Origin: an uncultured bacterium
GTDB taxonomy: Bacteria > Bacteroidota > Bacteroidia > Bacteroidales > Bacteroidaceae
Direction: 5' to 3'
NCBI GenBank assembly: GCA_946188155.1
Contig: CAMHUC010000004.1
Location: forward strand, 1 to 64,000
Length of the DNA: 64,000 nt
The notes below the pieces were generated by a model, which did no database searches, was not told where the DNA came from, and worked only from the letters and a program-made list of their open reading frames with translations. A program made the translations under genes and the position numbers. Position 1 is the first letter of the stretch. Every line of letters starts with the position of its first letter. This document shows, one piece after another, positions 27-9,424 of the stretch.

Positions 27-152
27 TTAACTCACACTAAATCCAGTAGAACCAATATTATCTTTATTCGCTTCAATATAATTTTTGACAATCCGCAGAA
101 GTAGTTCGTTGTCTTTTTTATGAGAATACACAGATTTTGGAATGAGACTCAT
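27..152 (-). CDS. small hypothetical protein, 41 aa
   Basis: This short frame is not in the ORF track. It starts with MSLIPKSVYSHKK and ends at a TAA, 11 bases after the stop of the 513-aa gene, so it could be the third gene of the same minus-strand operon. It is lysine-rich and has a predicted helix around LLLRIVKNYIEANK, with no signal peptide or membrane segment. I do not recognise it. There is no strong ribosome binding site, which is normal in Bacteroidota. It may be a real small partner protein or a chance frame in AT-rich DNA. Confidence 0.4.
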   Translation of the reverse strand: MSLIPKSVYSHKKDNELLLRIVKNYIEANKDNIGSTGFSVS

Positions 153-163
153 AGGATAATAGT

Positions 164-1705
164 TTACACATAACCAATTTGATGAACGCCTATTACACCC
201 CTTCGAAGAATTTTAATAATATCTCCTTCATATTTGTCTAATTCAAATTCATCAAACGAAAACTCGTCTGTCTCATATTCATCAACGTCAAATTCATCTA
301 CCTCAAAAATATCAAAACCTAATTGCTTGATGATTTCATCTGGCAAATGATAGTCTTGTTTAACAAGACCAAATAAGGTCCATCCAGATTCTATGCAGAA
401 AGAAATTACTGCTTTGTCAACTGAAATAAAAGCAAAAGAACCGACGAATGACCCAACAAAATTTCCCAACAGATATGCACCCGGAATCATTGGGAGACAA
501 AGTTGTGTGAGACCACCAAGACCTAACGCACATGATGTTACAAAAATATTTCGAGAAAGATTGGTCGTCATTTCATATTGGGTCATTGTACCCTTTACCA
601 CAAAAAATGCATCTTTCATCATATTCATAGCAATAACTGTCAATCCTGCAATAACATTAGGATTAACTGTTTTGAGCACTTCCCCCCATACTCCACTCTC
701 GCAAGCAGTTGTTAATGATGCAGATACAAAACCTCTAATAAATCCTTCTGATGATCCGCTAAGAGCAGCGAATCCAAGGTTCTTAAATTGATTATCTTCT
801 ATTTGACCTTCTTTAATTAATTGCTCAAAACATTTGTATATTTCTGGGGCTGTTTTGAGAACAAACGAAATGACAGCTGCAGTCATACCAGCTTTTACAC
901 CCTGTTTAAGAATATGATTTAATTTTATCAATTCCTCAGTTGTGAAGCCATATTCTTTAGCATCAAATTTTCCTTCTTTCGCAAGGCGAGCAATCTCTTC
1001 TGCTTCTTCTCTTGATAATTCCACAGATTGGGTTCCATCAGGAGATTCAATTTTAGCCTCTAATTTATTAAGGGTTTCTTGTAGTCTTGCCACCTGTTCT
1101 GGCCTGTTCCCAGACTCTTTTGCAATCTTTATTTTGAGGTAGGAAATAGCTTCTTCCAACTGGTCTTTTGGAATAATACGTATTTGCCCACTGTAGATTG
1201 GATCGTATTTTAGAACATCATTGGGGTCAATATTCCTTTCCTTCAAAAATTCATCAAAAGTCAAATCTGCTCTGCCTGATATTACTTTATATTCGCAATA
1301 ACGCTCAAAATAACTTGTTGCTTGAGCATCAGCTGATGCTTGAGCATTTCTATAGTATTTTAGCCCAAAACGATCTCCCCAATTACTCGTTATATCAGCC
1401 GATGCAAATCCATGGCTTCTGTCAACAACCGTCTTGAACCTCGAATCGTTAAGAGCTGCATTAATATTAAATGTGTCAGAATGCCAAAATTCGGCAATAT
1501 CTCCCTTAAGTTGCCCTACACTTGTATTAAATCCATTAAAAGCGTTTATATCTTCGTTTAATGCATCAATTGCTGTGTTTATATTACTAATATAAGTATC
1601 AGCCTGTTGGCTTCCTAATTGTGACATCGAATTATGAATGAAGGAATAATATCCTTCTTTCATAGAATTTAGGCTATTTGTTCTGCAATTTATAGAAGAT
1701 TTCAT
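164..1705 (-). CDS. hypothetical glycine-rich membrane protein, 513 aa
   Basis: I do not recognise this family. Residues 1-150 are soluble, with a GLKYYRNAQASADAQA stretch that looks like a conserved motif. Residues 190-260 are charged and helical. Residues about 265-430 are hydrophobic and rich in Gly, Ala and Ser (for example AGAYLL- and GSFVGSF-like runs), suggesting several membrane helices or a pore-type bundle. The C-terminus has five acidic pentapeptides followed by a basic end. There is no signal peptide. It lies 6 bases after the TIR-like gene and shares its promoter. A membrane effector paired with a sensor, as in a defence or conflict system, is an inference from architecture and AT-rich context only. 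Confidence 0.75.
   Translation of the reverse strand: MKSSINCRTNSLNSMKEGYYSFIHNSMSQLGSQQADTYISNINTAIDALNEDINAFNGFNTSVGQLKGDIAEFWHSDTFNINAALNDSRFKTVVDRSHGFASADITSNWGDRFGLKYYRNAQASADAQATSYFERYCEYKVISGRADLTFDEFLKERNIDPNDVLKYDPIYSGQIRIIPKDQLEEAISYLKIKIAKESGNRPEQVARLQETLNKLEAKIESPDGTQSVELSREEAEEIARLAKEGKFDAKEYGFTTEELIKLNHILKQGVKAGMTAAVISFVLKTAPEIYKCFEQLIKEGQIEDNQFKNLGFAALSGSSEGFIRGFVSASLTTACESGVWGEVLKTVNPNVIAGLTVIAMNMMKDAFFVVKGTMTQYEMTTNLSRNIFVTSCALGLGGLTQLCLPMIPGAYLLGNFVGSFVGSFAFISVDKAVISFCIESGWTLFGLVKQDYHLPDEIIKQLGFDIFEVDEFDVDEYETDEFSFDEFELDKYEGDIIKILRRGVIGVHQIGYV
227..313 (-). repeat. 15-bp repeats coding acidic pentapeptides
   Basis: Inside the 513-aa gene, five units of the form xxDE[F/Y] (EVDEF, DVDEY, ETDEF, SFDEF, ELDKY) follow one another. 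At the DNA level these are 15-bp degenerate repeats rich in attcatc. They make a strongly acidic, aromatic tail that can change length without breaking the frame. Confidence 0.8.
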
Positions 1706-1711
1706 AATCTG

Positions 1712-2254
1712 TTAAACCTTTAGCTTATCTTGCACAAAATCTAACATTAATTTGTTATCAAACTCATCGATTGCTTTCATTAAAAGGTAAAATTTAGCTC
1801 TTTTATTTTTGAATGTCGTTAAAATGACCCCAAGTATGGCAGAACCGACTAAACCTCCTGTGACAAGACCTAAAACAAACTTTCCCCAATCTTCTTTAAA
1901 TAATTGTCCAAGTAAATCCGCAGTCTTTATGACATTTGCATTTTTATCTATATATAGACCTATTTGATGTCCTTGCTTCTTATACAAAACACCTTGAATA
2001 ATTTCATTCTGTTTGAGTATTGGATCTGCCAAATTTTTATTTATAATATTCTTGCTTAATATTACCAAATAGTTAAAATTTGTAATTGAAGCTTTGTTGT
2101 GTTTGTATTCATTTTCATCCCAAGTAGTACTAGTTATATTCTTATCTACAGCTCTATTTGATAATGACTGTGCTATTGGTTCTGTAAAACTATCGTAAAC
2201 TACAATAAACTTGTAGTCGATTTTCTCTGTTTGATTATTTGAATTGTTGAACAT
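1712..2254 (-). CDS. TIR-like domain plus membrane helix, hypothetical, 180 aa
   Basis: Residues 14-115 read as an alpha/beta domain: strand KFIVVYD, then a helix, a WDENEY segment, strand NFNYLVILSKN, a helix with a Glu (QNEII) and strand QIGLYID. This order resembles TIR or related nucleotide-binding folds, where a strand ending in a Ser-rich loop precedes a helix with a catalytic Glu. The match is by eye and weak. Residues about 127-152 form a glycine-rich membrane helix, followed by a charged tail. It is the first gene of the operon, 6 bases before the 513-aa membrane gene. A sensor/effector pair is plausible but not shown. The gene itself looks real. Confidence 0.6.
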   Translation of the reverse strand: MFNNSNNQTEKIDYKFIVVYDSFTEPIAQSLSNRAVDKNITSTTWDENEYKHNKASITNFNYLVILSKNIINKNLADPILKQNEIIQGVLYKKQGHQIGLYIDKNANVIKTADLLGQLFKEDWGKFVLGLVTGGLVGSAILGVILTTFKNKRAKFYLLMKAIDEFDNKLMLDFVQDKLKV

Positions 2255-2452: not shown

Positions 2453-2483
2453 CAAAGATAGGGAATATTTCTGAAACGACAAA
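2453..2483 (-). promoter_or_regulatory. Bacteroidota promoter for the TIR-like operon
   Basis: On the minus strand TTTG is followed after 19 bases by TATCTTTG, a full match to the Bacteroidota housekeeping promoter. Transcription would start near 2446, giving a leader of about 190 bases before the 180-aa gene. In the 274-base gap 2255-2528 I see no gene other than this promoter and leader. Confidence 0.75.
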
Positions 2484-2528: not shown

Positions 2529-3134
2529 TTACAAACTACTATTGCCATCTTTCAGGCGGTAGATGATGTGATTGATCATGCTGCCTACTGTATTCAGCGT
2601 ACGACGGTCTGCCGCTGAGAGATAGATGTGGTAATCGTTGTAAAGATGCTGGTTCAACTCACGATAATCTATATCCGTAAAGGCTGGGTTGCTGTCAAAG
2701 TGCAACTTCTTCTGCTTGTTACAGAAGACAAACAGGTCTAAGAGTTCCTGCCTCTGCTTATCGTAGTTCTCCATCTCGATGGCCAGCATCTCTCTGTACT
2801 CTGGTTTCGTTTCTACCTCAATACGGAGCATCAGTTCCTTCATGCTTTCGAGCGTCCAGTCTGCATCATGATCTACTCCGATACCGAAATTGTGTCGAAG
2901 GAGAAAGAGGAATTTGTCATTGTCGAAATCATAGCCAACAAGTTCATCGAAGTTTGATTCTTCTATATAACGGCGACGGCAAAACTCAAATGTGTACAGG
3001 AAATTGCGCATGAGTGGGGTGTTTGGCACCTCGTCAGACTCAATCAGTTTATAAGGAATATCCTTCAAATACGGTGATGATAGTACTTCAGCAAGTATTT
3101 CTTCTCTTTTGGACTGTATTTCTTCTTTCGTCAT
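2529..3134 (-). CDS. hypothetical protein, 201 aa
   Basis: Not recognised. The protein is soluble, acidic and mostly helical, with many Glu, Asp and Tyr residues and no signal peptide or membrane segment. It begins MTKEEIQSKREEILAEV and has a cluster of Arg and Tyr at FEFCRRRYIEES. It is the last gene of a three-gene minus-strand operon, 18 bases after the 85-aa membrane protein. The AT-rich composition and lack of known neighbours suggest an accessory gene, possibly part of the element that carried the truncated integrase. Confidence 0.65.
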   Translation of the reverse strand: MTKEEIQSKREEILAEVLSSPYLKDIPYKLIESDEVPNTPLMRNFLYTFEFCRRRYIEESNFDELVGYDFDNDKFLFLLRHNFGIGVDHDADWTLESMKELMLRIEVETKPEYREMLAIEMENYDKQRQELLDLFVFCNKQKKLHFDSNPAFTDIDYRELNQHLYNDYHIYLSAADRRTLNTVGSMINHIIYRLKDGNSSL

Positions 3135-3152
3135 GATTCTTTATTCATTAAA

Positions 3153-3410
3153 TTAAACACTCTGTGAAATCATAAAGCAAATTCCCAAGCCAAACAGATG
3201 TCTGTATCGCCATAAGGAGGGAAATTCCAAGTAGAACTCTTCCTCAGTGAGAGGAATTGACATGATGGCACATGCGCCCCAGAACATTGCTGTGTATGAA
3301 ATGATTCTGGGGACACCTGCCAACACCATAGCTGTAACAATAGCCATGTGAAGGAACGGGATACCTTTGGTTACAATATCTAACGTCATAATCGGTCTGT
3401 TTATCACCAT
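3153..3410 (-). CDS. small membrane protein, 85 aa
   Basis: Not recognised. It has two or three hydrophobic segments: about residues 17-33 (HMAIVTAMVLAGVPRI), 38-53 (YTAMFWGACAIMSI) and 72-84 (LFGLGICFMIS). They are separated by an acidic loop TEEEFYLEF. There is no cleavable signal. It lies 7 bases after the 145-aa gene and before the 201-aa gene, so the three are probably made together. Confidence 0.55.
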   Translation of the reverse strand: MVINRPIMTLDIVTKGIPFLHMAIVTAMVLAGVPRIISYTAMFWGACAIMSIPLTEEEFYLEFPSLWRYRHLFGLGICFMISQSV

Positions 3411-3417
3411 TATTATC

Positions 3418-3855
3418 TTACTTCAACACAAAGGACAAGTTGATATAGTCTGGCTCAAAACTGATGCTTTGCATTTCCACTTTCTCTAAAATGGTATTCA
3501 GCTTATCAATCTTATCGACATGAACTAACACTGTATGATTGTCTTGTACCTCCAGCATGTCTTTAACAACATCCTCACACAATTCCAATACCTGTTCCCA
3601 CTTCAGATCAAAAGCCATTCCCGCATGTGTCAACGTAATGTCACTGTCAGCCACCATCTTAACAGAGACTTTTTCTTTAACAGGAATTGTTGCTTCCGCT
3701 ACCTTCAGTTTTATTTTAACTACGGCACTCACCTGTATGGTGCTCTCATCTACATACGCCAACTTAATTTGGCGAATCATCTTCTGCTGAAAATACTTAC
3801 TGAGTAATTGCTCAAACTCGTTGTAAGGAATCTGTAATCTCATATACCTTATCAT
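3418..3855 (-). CDS. hypothetical protein, 145 aa, first gene of operon
   Basis: Not recognised. The sequence alternates beta-type stretches (STIQVSAVVKIKLKV, EKVSVKMVADSDITL, YINLSFVLK) with one helix (QVLELCEDVVKDML), which suggests a beta-rich binding fold. There is no signal peptide. Start choices are the Met at 3855 or the one four residues later. The promoter motif at 3904-3911 gives a leader of about 45 bases. It is followed by the 85-aa membrane protein and the 201-aa protein. Confidence 0.6.
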   Translation of the reverse strand: MIRYMRLQIPYNEFEQLLSKYFQQKMIRQIKLAYVDESTIQVSAVVKIKLKVAEATIPVKEKVSVKMVADSDITLTHAGMAFDLKWEQVLELCEDVVKDMLEVQDNHTVLVHVDKIDKLNTILEKVEMQSISFEPDYINLSFVLK

Positions 3856-3888: not shown

Positions 3889-4224
3889 TCAAGTTTCTGG
3901 GTGCAAAGATATGGGGAGGTACGGACATAATGTGTCCGACCTTGATATTTTTTGCAATACGAAAGCCTCACGATCCGATAGGTGCTGATAATGCTTGATG
4001 ATCTGCGCCTTGATATTATCCAGTTCGCGGTTAATCTGCAATGCCTCCTTGCTGCGACCTTTAGCGCAATTGCCCTTTACATCCCACATGTCAAGCGGGA
4101 TTGTCTTCTTACAACTGAACTGCGATTGCGTTCCGTTAATCGTCACTCTGCCCATCACAGGAACCACACCGTTCTTCTCCTTACTCTTGTTCACATAGAA
4201 CAGAATGTTAAAAGTACTTCTCAT
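3889..4224 (-). pseudogene. truncated tyrosine recombinase, N-terminal fragment
   Basis: MRSTFNILFYVNKSKEKNG followed by a VTINGTQ and FSCKKTIPLDMWD pattern is the arm-type DNA-binding N-terminus of integrases from Bacteroidota mobile elements. Homology appears to stop after about 88 residues (SDREAFV). The last 22 residues look unrelated, and the core-binding and catalytic domains (R..H-x-x-R, Tyr) are missing, where a full protein has about 400 residues. The start at 4224 is preferred over 4281 because AAAAGGAG lies just upstream and a promoter motif sits between the two. It marks the edge of an old element. Confidence 0.8.
3904..3911 (-). promoter_or_regulatory. -7 box for the 3418-2529 operon
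   Basis: TATCTTTG on the minus strand, 45-50 bases before the 145-aa gene. No good TTTG is seen at the usual spacing. A 6-bp inverted repeat, CGGACA-TAATG-TGTCCG (3922-3938), lies just upstream and could be an operator. The box is inside the last codons of the integrase remnant. Confidence 0.55.
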
Positions 4225-4253
4225 GTTTCTTACTCCTTTTTTAATTTTGGCTG

Positions 4254-4261
4254 CAAAACTA
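4254..4261 (-). promoter_or_regulatory. -7 box for the integrase remnant
   Basis: TAGTTTTG on the minus strand, about 30 bases before the ATG at 4224. It supports that start over the upstream in-frame Met at 4281, which would lie before the promoter. Confidence 0.45.
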
Positions 4262-4281
4262 CTATTTCTTTTGGCGTCCAT

Positions 4282-4569: not shown

Positions 4570-6126
4570 ATGATAAATTATCCTATTGGAATACAAGATT
4601 TCCTGTCCCTCCGCAAGGGCGGCTTCGTCTATGTGGACAAGACAGACATCATCTACAAACTGACCCGGGGCCACATCTTTTTCCTCGGCCGTCCGCGCCG
4701 CTTCGGCAAGAGCCTCCTTGTGAGTACCCTGAAGTACTACTTCCAGGGCCGCCGCGACCTGTTCGAGGGCCTGCGCATCATGGACTTGGAGCAGGAGTGG
4801 CAGCAGCATGCAGTGTTCCATTTCGACTTCAACAGCGTGGCACAGAAAGGGGCCATGCAGGAGTATGTCAGCAGGAAGATAGATGCGTGGCAGCAGGAGT
4901 ACCCCTTTGCTGCCAAATTCGAGAGCCTGGCCCTGCGCTTCCGCTGGCTCCTCGAGGCCGCCCATAAGAAGACAGGCCGTCAGGTGGTGGTGCTCATCGA
5001 CGAATACGACAAGCCCCTGCTCGACCTGCTTGAGACTGGCGATGCCGCCGACGAGCGGCAGCTTGAGGAGAACCGCGCATTCCTCAAGGACTTCTTCTCC
5101 GTGTTCAAGGCCGCCGACGAGCACCTGCGCTTCGTGCTGCTCACGGGCATCACCAAGTTCTCGCAGGTCACGATGTTCAGCGGCTTCAACCAGCCCGACG
5201 ACATCTCCATCGACACCCGCTACGAAGCCCTCTGCGGCATCACCGAGGAGGAGCTGCACACCGTGTTTGCCGAGGGCATCAGCGAACTGGCCGAAGCTTA
5301 CGACATGACGGTAGCGCAGATAAAGGAATTGCTAAAAGCCATGTACGACGGCTACCACTTCAGCACCCGCATGAAGGACATCTACAACCCCTTCAGCATC
5401 ATCAACTGCTTTGCCAAGAGCAACATAAGCAACTACTGGTTCCGCTCGGGCACACCGTCGCTCATGGTGCGCCTGTTGGCCAACTGCAGCGAGGAGGTGA
5501 TGCAGTACACGGGCCAGTGGTACCGGGAGAGTATGTTCATGGACTACAAGACCGACCGCGAGATGCCGCTGCCCATGATCTTCCAGGCCGGCTACCTCAC
5601 CATCAAGGCAGTCAATAAGGAGTTTGGCACCTACCTGCTCGACTTCCCCAACCGCGAGGTGCGCGAGGGTTTGACCACAATACTGGCCAGCAACTATCTG
5701 CAGCCGAAGAAAGCCCCCGGTTCGTGGGTCCTTGACATGGTGCTTGCCATGCGGCAGGGCGACACCGAGCAGGTGCGCCGGCTGTTCACCTCCTTCCTGG
5801 CCGAGACACCCTACTCCATGCGGCCGAAGAAAGACAGTGAGCTTTACTTCCACTACACCTTCTATCTGCTGATGCGCCTCATCTCCTGCTACACCGTCTA
5901 CACCGAGAAGCAGCTCAGCGAGGGCCGTGCCGACTGCATCGTGGAGACGCCGCAGTACGTCTACATCTTCGAGTTCAAGCTCGACGGCACTGCCGAGGAG
6001 GCCCTTCAGCAGATCCGCGACCGTGGCTATGCCCGTGCCTACGAGGCCGACAGTCGGCGGTTGTTCTGTATCGGGGCCTCGTTCAGCAGCAAGACGGGCA
6101 CCATAGAGGAGTGGCAGAACTCATGA
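4570..6126 (+). CDS. AAA-ATPase-like / PD-(D/E)XK nuclease family protein
   Basis: The N-terminal two thirds is the predicted AAA-ATPase-like domain (PF09820 type). It opens with YPIGIQDFLSLRKGGFVYVDKT, has a P-loop GRPRRFGKS near residue 40 and a Walker B strand VVVLIDEYDKPLL near residue 140. The C-terminus carries the linked PD-(D/E)XK-type domain (PF08011 type) with the core YVYIFEFKLDGTAEEALQQI. Length (518 aa) is normal. The family is often multicopy in Bacteroidota and its function is not established. It is a diverged paralogue of the triplicated genes at 9.4-14.1 kb. It ends 4 bases from the convergent VirE gene. Confidence 0.9.
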   Translation: MINYPIGIQDFLSLRKGGFVYVDKTDIIYKLTRGHIFFLGRPRRFGKSLLVSTLKYYFQGRRDLFEGLRIMDLEQEWQQHAVFHFDFNSVAQKGAMQEYVSRKIDAWQQEYPFAAKFESLALRFRWLLEAAHKKTGRQVVVLIDEYDKPLLDLLETGDAADERQLEENRAFLKDFFSVFKAADEHLRFVLLTGITKFSQVTMFSGFNQPDDISIDTRYEALCGITEEELHTVFAEGISELAEAYDMTVAQIKELLKAMYDGYHFSTRMKDIYNPFSIINCFAKSNISNYWFRSGTPSLMVRLLANCSEEVMQYTGQWYRESMFMDYKTDREMPLPMIFQAGYLTIKAVNKEFGTYLLDFPNREVREGLTTILASNYLQPKKAPGSWVLDMVLAMRQGDTEQVRRLFTSFLAETPYSMRPKKDSELYFHYTFYLLMRLISCYTVYTEKQLSEGRADCIVETPQYVYIFEFKLDGTAEEALQQIRDRGYARAYEADSRRLFCIGASFSSKTGTIEEWQNS

Positions 6127-6130
6127 ATGG

Positions 6131-7504
6131 CTACAGCTGTTCGGCATACCAGCCCCTGACGCGCTGATGGCGCCCGTAGGCGAAGTGGGCCGACTTCAGG
6201 GCCAGCGTGAGGGCTTTCAGGCTGGGCACGTCGGCCATCCTGACGTGCTCTCTGAGCACCTTCTGGATGTCGATGGCCCGCATGAAGTGCTCGGCATCGG
6301 GGTGGGCAGGCTTGAAGAACGACAGGAGCACCTCCTCGGGCGACGACTGGCGTTGGTAGGCCTGGTTGTGGTGTACAATCTCCGTCTCTTCCTCCTTGGT
6401 GTAGTGCCAGCGCTCACCGTGGCGCAGCTCGTGCAGTGCCTGGGCGTACATCTGGCGGTGGAGCCAGGGCGAGTCGGTGTCGATGGAGCCCGTCACCTCG
6501 CAGCACAGGTATCGGCGCGAGCCGCTGATGTCGCAGAGCGGCTCCAGGTCGTTGGTGGTGGCGATGAATGATGCCATGCGCGGGCGCAGCTCGTACTGGT
6601 CGCTGCGCATGCGGCGCGTCTGCACGTCCTTCTCGGTGAGCAGGCGCTTGATCTTGGCCTGCTCGCGGTCGGTCTTGGCGTTGTACTCGTCGATGTTCAC
6701 CAAGAGCATCCGGCAGAGCATGCGCTCCACCTGCTCGGCGGCGTCGAGCTTCACGTCGTCGATGTAGTACTCGCGCAGCTCGGGCGGCAGCAGCATTCGG
6801 CAGAAGGTGGACTTGTGGGTGCCCTGCTGTCCGATGAGCATGGGCACCACGGCGTTGCCATATTCGTGCGAGAGGTTGAGCCACTGGGCCACCACGGCCA
6901 GCAGCCAGCGGTGGAAGTGGTCGGGCCAGCGGTCGTAGGCCGTGGGCACGCGGCGCGCCGCCTGTCGGATGTGGTCGCAGCCGTCCCACGCCGGGCAGCT
7001 GTCGAGGAAGGCGGTCACGGGGTTGTACAGCGGCACGAGTGCGCTGCGCACATACAGCTCCACGTCGATGGACCACGCCACGCCCACCTGCTCCATCTGC
7101 TCGATGGCCATCTGCCGCAGCTTGCGGTCGGTGAGCGGTTGCCAGCTGCCGGCCTTTTCCTCTCCGAACGGAGCCTTCCCTTGGAAGAACGGAGCCTCCT
7201 CTTGGAAATTTGAAGGCTCCTCTTGGAAATTTGGAGCCTCCTTTTTGGCGAAAGGAGCCTTCTGTTGAGCGTAAGTAGCCTCCGCAGCACGGAGCGGGCG
7301 GTACTCTTCGGTCTGTTTCATCACATTGTAGCGCAATTCGTAGTTTTGTTCGAAGAACTTACGCACTCCCTGCACTATCCGGCGGCGCTCCTTGGTTGAG
7401 CTGTAGCCTTCGCCCGACGTCCTGGGAGTCGGTATGATGTTCCACAGGTCGATGATGTTCTTGATCACCACGCCTATTGTTTTCAGCATTTCTATCATCT
7501 TCAT
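6131..7504 (-). CDS. VirE/VapE family P-loop protein (primase-helicase C-terminal type)
   Basis: The core from about residue 150 is a VirE domain (PF05272 type): P-loop LIGQQGTHKSTF, Walker B-like MLLVNIDEYN, and the sensor region ASFIATTNDLEPLCDISGSRRYL. These ATPases act with primases in mobile elements. This copy lacks the BT4734-type N-terminal domain of the second VirE gene here. Residues 83-117 are a heptapeptide repeat tract. It is last in a minus-strand group with a zinc-finger protein and an M15 peptidase, a combination seen in Bacteroidota mobile modules. The gap to the zinc-finger gene holds a long inverted repeat. Most likely role is replication or maintenance of a mobile module; this is inference. 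Confidence 0.85.
   Translation of the reverse strand: MKMIEMLKTIGVVIKNIIDLWNIIPTPRTSGEGYSSTKERRRIVQGVRKFFEQNYELRYNVMKQTEEYRPLRAAEATYAQQKAPFAKKEAPNFQEEPSNFQEEAPFFQGKAPFGEEKAGSWQPLTDRKLRQMAIEQMEQVGVAWSIDVELYVRSALVPLYNPVTAFLDSCPAWDGCDHIRQAARRVPTAYDRWPDHFHRWLLAVVAQWLNLSHEYGNAVVPMLIGQQGTHKSTFCRMLLPPELREYYIDDVKLDAAEQVERMLCRMLLVNIDEYNAKTDREQAKIKRLLTEKDVQTRRMRSDQYELRPRMASFIATTNDLEPLCDISGSRRYLCCEVTGSIDTDSPWLHRQMYAQALHELRHGERWHYTKEEETEIVHHNQAYQRQSSPEEVLLSFFKPAHPDAEHFMRAIDIQKVLREHVRMADVPSLKALTLALKSAHFAYGRHQRVRGWYAEQL
7154..7258 (-). repeat. 21-bp repeats coding heptapeptides in VirE
   Basis: Five seven-residue units follow one another: APFAKKE, APNFQEE, PSNFQEE, APFFQGK, APFGEEK. The 21-bp DNA unit keeps the frame, so copy number can change without loss of the protein. 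The tract lies in the linker before the ATPase domain. Confidence 0.85.
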
Positions 7505-9273: not shown

Positions 9274-9304
9274 CAAAGGTACGAAATAATGTTGACACGG
9301 CAAA
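9274..9304 (-). promoter_or_regulatory. consensus promoter of the DUF7477-like gene
   Basis: On the minus strand TTTG, 19 bases, then TACCTTTG: a perfect Bacteroidota promoter. The leader is about 20 bases. Confidence 0.8.
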
Positions 9305-9392: not shown

Positions 9393-9424
9393 TTTGGCGG
9401 TTAAAAGAAAAATGACTATCTTTG
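9393..9424 (+). promoter_or_regulatory. consensus promoter of the AAA-ATPase-like triplet
   Basis: TTTG, 20 bases, then TATCTTTG. The ORF-track start at 9422 is a TTG inside the -7 box, so translation must begin at the ATG pair 9449/9452. Only this copy has a promoter; copies two and three follow their predecessors by 8 bases. Confidence 0.8.

Follow-up and report, generated by a model that had tools for sequence, protein, structure and literature searches.

The window analysed here, a 64,000-nucleotide stretch from an uncultured member of the Bacteroidaceae, carries near its first base three open reading frames on the minus strand, ORF1, ORF2 and a 41-aa ORF, separated by gaps of 6 and 11 bases (Table 1), as the first-pass annotation had reported. 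The segment was also correctly described as AT-rich, at 33.7% GC compared with 56.4% for the whole window. The shared consensus promoter that had been proposed corresponds to an exact Bacteroidota-type sequence located approximately 200 nt upstream of ORF1, but a search of the region upstream of ORF1 for a σ70-type site found none. The window contains three exact matches to the Bacteroidota consensus, where 0.19 would be expected, and none of the shuffled sequences reached three; the other two sites are mutually divergent. The integrase remnant, said to adjoin the genes, is genuine but lies 1.6 kb from the pair, beyond three other ORFs that share its strand and have neither a Pfam nor a PADLOC match. 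On the far side of the remnant, an AAA-ATPase-like gene and then a VapE-like gene were identified by eye only. The 41-aa ORF, previously counted within the operon, has no convincing homologue in any fetched locus and none in 149 related genomes; it was rejected as a third component, and it probably does not belong to the system. Base 1 of the window is the end of the contig, and the sequence downstream of the 41-aa ORF lies outside the view.

Table 1. Features of the ORF1-ORF2 locus and its surroundings, in window coordinates, with the basis of each assignment.
Feature	Position	Strand	Basis or remark
41-aa ORF	27-152	-	Without homologue; probably outside the system
ORF2 (513 aa)	164-1705	-	AlphaFold mean pLDDT 82; 50-sequence alignment; PDC-M09B match in 43/50 members
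RRGVIGVxxIGYV C-terminal motif, ORF2	167-205	-	R502, G503, G511 and Y512 at least 90% conserved
Acidic repeat tail, ORF2 residues 464-498	212-316	-	Aromatic residue or Cys at every fifth position
Five long Gly/Ala-rich helices, ORF2 residues 262-440	386-922	-	AlphaFold model; zipper G414xxxG418xxxG422
Nuclease-like domain, ORF2 residues 58-198	1112-1534	-	Alignment, AlphaFold model and motif match to PDC-M09B
ORF1 (180 aa)	1712-2254	-	AlphaFold pLDDT 86; profile-detected homologue upstream of ORF2 in 53/53 loci
Hydrophobic helix, ORF1 residues 127-145	1820-1876	-	Kyte-Doolittle 2.27; transmembrane candidate
Three β-α units and β-meander, ORF1 residues 15-102	1949-2212	-	DSSP on model; family alignment
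Bacteroidota-type promoter consensus TTTG-N19-TATCTTTG	2453-2483	-	Exact match
Intervening ORFs (201, 85 and 145 aa)	2529-3855	-	
Integrase remnant (130 aa)	3889-4281	-	Arm-DNA-bind_5 domain only, E 2.5e-14
AAA-ATPase-like gene	4570-6126	+	By eye
VapE-like gene	6131-7504	-	By eye
Further promoter consensus	9274-9304	-	Exact match
Further promoter consensus	9393-9424	+	Exact match

Homologues of ORF2 were collected in two scans: a five-sequence alignment run against 84,980 genomes yielded 47 loci, and a viral scan contributed 3 more. Near relatives also came from the records of two plasmids and one phage, and a distant one from two Cronobacter plasmids. The homologues are 30-54% identical to the window protein, and an alignment of 50 ORF2 sequences contains eleven invariant columns, whose only charged residues are E72, D104 and K116; G68 and Q128 are likewise invariant. 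The AlphaFold model of ORF2 exceeds a pLDDT of 90 across most of residues 40-250, and DSSP assigns to it a helix (63-85), three strands (92-94, 105-107 and 112-115), a second helix (121-128) and a further strand (175-177). PD-(D/E)XK nucleases are built on an α-β-β-β-α-β core, with a Glu in helix A, an Asp in strand 2 and an xxK motif in strand 3. The elements of the ORF2 model follow the same order, and E72 falls within the first helix, D104 where the second strand begins, K116 where the third strand ends and Q128 at the close of the second helix. Alignment and model together lead us to predict that this domain is a PD-(D/E)XK nuclease, a motif set that the first-pass annotation had missed.

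The position two residues before the lysine, occupied by D, E or Q in the xxK motif, is Gly in 34, Ser in 13 and Gln in 3 of the 50 members, that is, neither acidic nor Gln in 47 of them. Gln is present in the distant L004 and L009 and in PDC-M09B, and in the farther relatives G, E, D and K remain invariant alongside a more classical QxK. Since the third metal ligand position is mostly Gly or Ser, the nuclease domain could be inactive. Comparison of ORF2 with the Mrr_cat profile gave a probability of 0.1%; ORF2 had no sequence match in the PDB, and a whole-chain Foldseek search against the PDB and viral models returned no match at E ≤ 0.001. No Pfam family scored above cut-off for ORF1 or ORF2, and no NCBIfam family did so for ORF2.

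Profile comparison indicates that ORF2 is distantly homologous to PDC-M09B, a component of the defence candidate PDC-M09. PDC-M09B (PADLOC model PDLC04409) is the sole library family matched by most ORF2 members (43/50 at E ≤ 0.1); the window protein scores 24.7 bits (E 2e-6), compared with over 580 bits for true M09B proteins. In hhalign, ORF2 residues 64-430 align with PDC-M09B at a probability of 97.6% (E 2.9e-12), and E72, D104 and K116 superpose in the profile alignment on the M09B motifs GEIAE, PEDY and VQSK. True PDC-M09 members (L080 and L081) carry PDC-M09A, with scores over 300 bits, directly upstream of M09B. A PDC-M09A match was found in none of 48 ORF1 members, and hhalign of ORF1 against PDC-M09A gave a probability of 0.1%. 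At another locus (L082, 4243-6398), the gene after an ORF2-like nuclease-membrane protein encodes a coiled-coil protein of 228 aa that has a TM at its C-terminus and weakly matches PDC-M40C. At two more (L083, 2287-5844, and L085, 4508-8047), three genes stand in a row, for an M09B-like protein, a Gly-rich membrane protein of 527 aa and a 134-aa product whose resemblance to TerB was judged by eye.

The Gly/Ala-rich, membrane-like region and the acidic repeat tail that had been attributed to the second gene were both confirmed. A GxxxGxxxG glycine zipper occurs in 53 of 56 ORF2 members, against a mean of 6.4 after shuffling, and a hydrophobic stretch scoring 1.6 or more on the Kyte-Doolittle scale over 19 residues in 52 of 54; the window protein is itself of moderate hydrophobicity (1.35-1.75). 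Its tail contains 16 D/E and 2 K/R residues, and the five-residue register is kept in 43 of 56 family tails. The C-terminus of ORF2 from one locus (L015) consists of near-perfect EPEMC repeats, with Cys at every fifth residue, and an NCBIfam Cys-every-fifth RiPP model weakly matches two tails of the family.

According to its model, ORF1 is a small Rossmann-like α/β domain followed by helices, and its family shares the motif W.E..Y..N...ISS..ILFIG ... YGM.YGWLGK.A. The membrane helix ascribed to it exists in the window protein as a hydrophobic helix, but such a helix reaches a hydrophobicity of 1.6 in only 24 of 52 family members and was dropped as a defining feature. The ORF1 family has no invariant polar residue of the kind expected in an enzyme, and its rate of evolution exceeds that of ORF2 (median pairwise identity of 0.25 versus 0.40). 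ORF1 is regarded here as a putative sensor or regulator of ORF2.

The pairing of the two genes was assessed by cross-validation, in which ORF1 clusters (55% identity) were halved and the profile of each half was used to search the loci of the other. Both searches recovered the ORF immediately preceding ORF2 at every locus (24/24 and 29/29, 53/53 in total) and matched nothing else among 3,241 and 3,189 ORFs (about 6,400). Some loci are near-duplicates (e.g., L003 and L047), which the clustering absorbed. The gaps between ORF1 and ORF2 are mostly of -8 to +22 nt, and two distant ORF2 relatives (L009 and L053) lack ORF1. Furthermore, the distance matrices of ORF1 and ORF2 are correlated with an r of 0.84, a value reached by none of 2000 permutations, the highest of which did not exceed 0.31. 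ORF1 and ORF2 are a conserved, co-evolving pair.

The pair repeatedly lies among defence genes. In L048, PglX, ORF1, ORF2, PglZ and BrxL follow one another on one strand, and 13 bases separate the end of PglX from ORF1; L054 shares this arrangement, except that PglX is followed by one additional gene. A type I restriction gene belongs to the same-direction run in L016, a type IIG enzyme to the neighbourhood of L023, R-M genes lie directly upstream of the pair in the phage locus L008, and DUF262/GmrSD-type genes are found nearby in L007. WYL regulators account for 7 of 149 near neighbours, a raw count from a scan limited to the loci of the pair, and further near neighbours match MADS, restriction enzyme, SpbK-like and GmrSD models. 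Within that same scan, association with defence genes, through BREX embedding and through WYL, R-M, MADS and GmrSD neighbours, was found in several lineages. The pair is present in Prevotella, Bacteroidales, clostridia, bacilli and streptococci, including S. pneumoniae and S. suis, and ORF2 homologues are carried on plasmids and phages. The defence reading of the pair is well supported by this genomic context. The first-pass annotation had proposed a small sensor with a membrane effector acting in defence and had named conserved pairing across genomes as a check; with the pair kept together in all 53 loci, inside BREX operons and beside restriction genes, that layout is well supported on its own terms. 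On a Cronobacter plasmid (L009, 4876-10458), a WYL regulator shares an operon with a distant relative of ORF2 (470 aa, QLK motif) and a protein of 1,068 aa that has no PADLOC match; this is possibly another unnamed defence operon.

In our judgement, the balance tilts slightly towards the pair being an anti-phage module on mobile DNA, in which ORF1 would sense infection and control ORF2, a membrane-anchored nuclease. This proposal draws on the computed pairing, co-evolution and defence neighbourhood, on the set of nuclease motifs and on the homology between ORF2 and PDC-M09B. The effector would be ORF2, whose glycine-zipper helical domain would anchor a PD-(D/E)XK-type nuclease in the inner membrane and whose variable acidic tail may hold the nuclease off. 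ORF1 would bind ORF2 and keep it inactive until infection is sensed, probably at the membrane, or via a small molecule or protein signal. Once freed, ORF2 may destroy at the membrane either the incoming phage DNA or, as a form of suicide, the DNA of the host. If this is correct, the pair would constitute an unnamed anti-phage system with a membrane-anchored nuclease effector, distributed across several bacterial groups.

A serious rival, which we consider possible though not probable, is that the pair acts against phages with a dead PD-(D/E)XK domain, which would serve as the sensor by binding a nucleotide or nucleic acid, and that the glycine-zipper helices would make a pore lethal to the infected cell. 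It is serious because Gly or Ser stands two residues before the catalytic lysine in nearly all members and no solved nuclease was matched; moreover, the membrane domain is the part most widely common to PDC-M09B-like proteins, some of which are matched there alone, and passages of a BREX survey describe inactive REase folds as sensors in BREX helicases (PMC12839542). However, the invariance of E, D, K and Q in 50 sequences at approximately 40% median identity would be unusual for a dead enzyme. We think it unlikely that ORF2 is one member of a wide and mostly undescribed superfamily of nucleases that are embedded in the membrane and can exchange their partners (the Rossmann ORF1, the Gly-rich M09A, the coiled-coil/TM protein of L082, and the 527-aa Gly-rich protein beside the TerB-like ORF of L083 and L085), in which the acidic five-residue repeat tail would be a built-in mimic of DNA, to be removed by the partner when infection occurs.

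Still less probable is a toxin-antitoxin-like or addiction module, in which ORF1 would neutralise ORF2 and the main role would be maintenance of a mobile element. A small gene upstream of its effector, their tight overlap, and carriage on plasmids and phages are consistent with such a module, which is functionally hard to tell from abortive infection. Nevertheless, repeated BREX embedding, adjacency to restriction genes and wide chromosomal spread fit defence better, and the faster evolution of ORF1 is what would be expected of a phage-facing sensor. We regard as very unlikely the notion that ORF1 is a degenerate TIR/SLOG signalling enzyme making or cleaving a nucleotide to which ORF2 responds. 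ORF1 does have three β-α units, and an Acinetobacter TIR appears among its weak Foldseek matches (E 0.13), but receiver and SIS domains match it equally, the Foldseek results being generic Rossmann, receiver and SIS matches alone (E ≥ 0.02). Against a TIR_2 profile built from 22 Bacteroidales TIR domains, hhalign gave a probability of 2.2%, with 100% for the TIR/TIR control, and no residue is conserved as the TIR catalytic Glu is. TIR homology of the first gene, which the first-pass annotation had called TIR-like, was rejected on these grounds: what it shares with TIR domains is strand order rather than homology, and the fold search returned only those generic matches. That the locus is a chance cluster of unrelated mobile genes, as the reliance of the earlier reading on one sequence and the silence of Pfam might suggest, is scarcely credible, being refuted by the 53/53 pairing and further contradicted by the co-divergence.

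Among known systems, those of the Kiwa type comprise two genes, a membrane sensor and a DNA-acting partner. The proposed nuclease module would share with Kiwa the two genes, the membrane location and the DNA-acting component, but PADLOC reports no sequence relation, and here the membrane part resides on the nuclease-like protein. As described in parts of a recent survey (Rakesh and Krishnan 2026, PMC12839542), BREX operons carry auxiliary nuclease effectors of the PD-(D/E)XK type. The present pair likewise places a predicted protein of this type between BREX core genes, whereas those in the survey stand alone or are fused to HARE-HTH, ATPase or helicase domains, and main-text passages of that survey (PMC12839542) mention no fusion to a glycine-zipper membrane domain that is paired with a Rossmann protein. 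The closest relationship is with PDC-M09 (PADLOC-DB v2, PDC-M09A and PDC-M09B). PDC candidates originate from a guilt-by-embedding screen, and experimental validation is absent for most of them (PMC12988326); literature searches, with preprints outside their scope, found no paper on PDC-M09. Both systems consist of two genes, with the partner upstream of an M09B-type protein. In contrast, the Gly-rich helical PDC-M09A is absent here, its place being taken by the unrelated ORF1, and the acidic pentad tail and the RRGVIG end are specific to the ORF2 branch. The pair belongs with the predicted candidate family PDC-M09 and is new in its partner and details. Should the proposed mechanism be correct, the PDC-M09 candidate would gain a common core, namely the same kind of nuclease-membrane protein combined with a different small partner.
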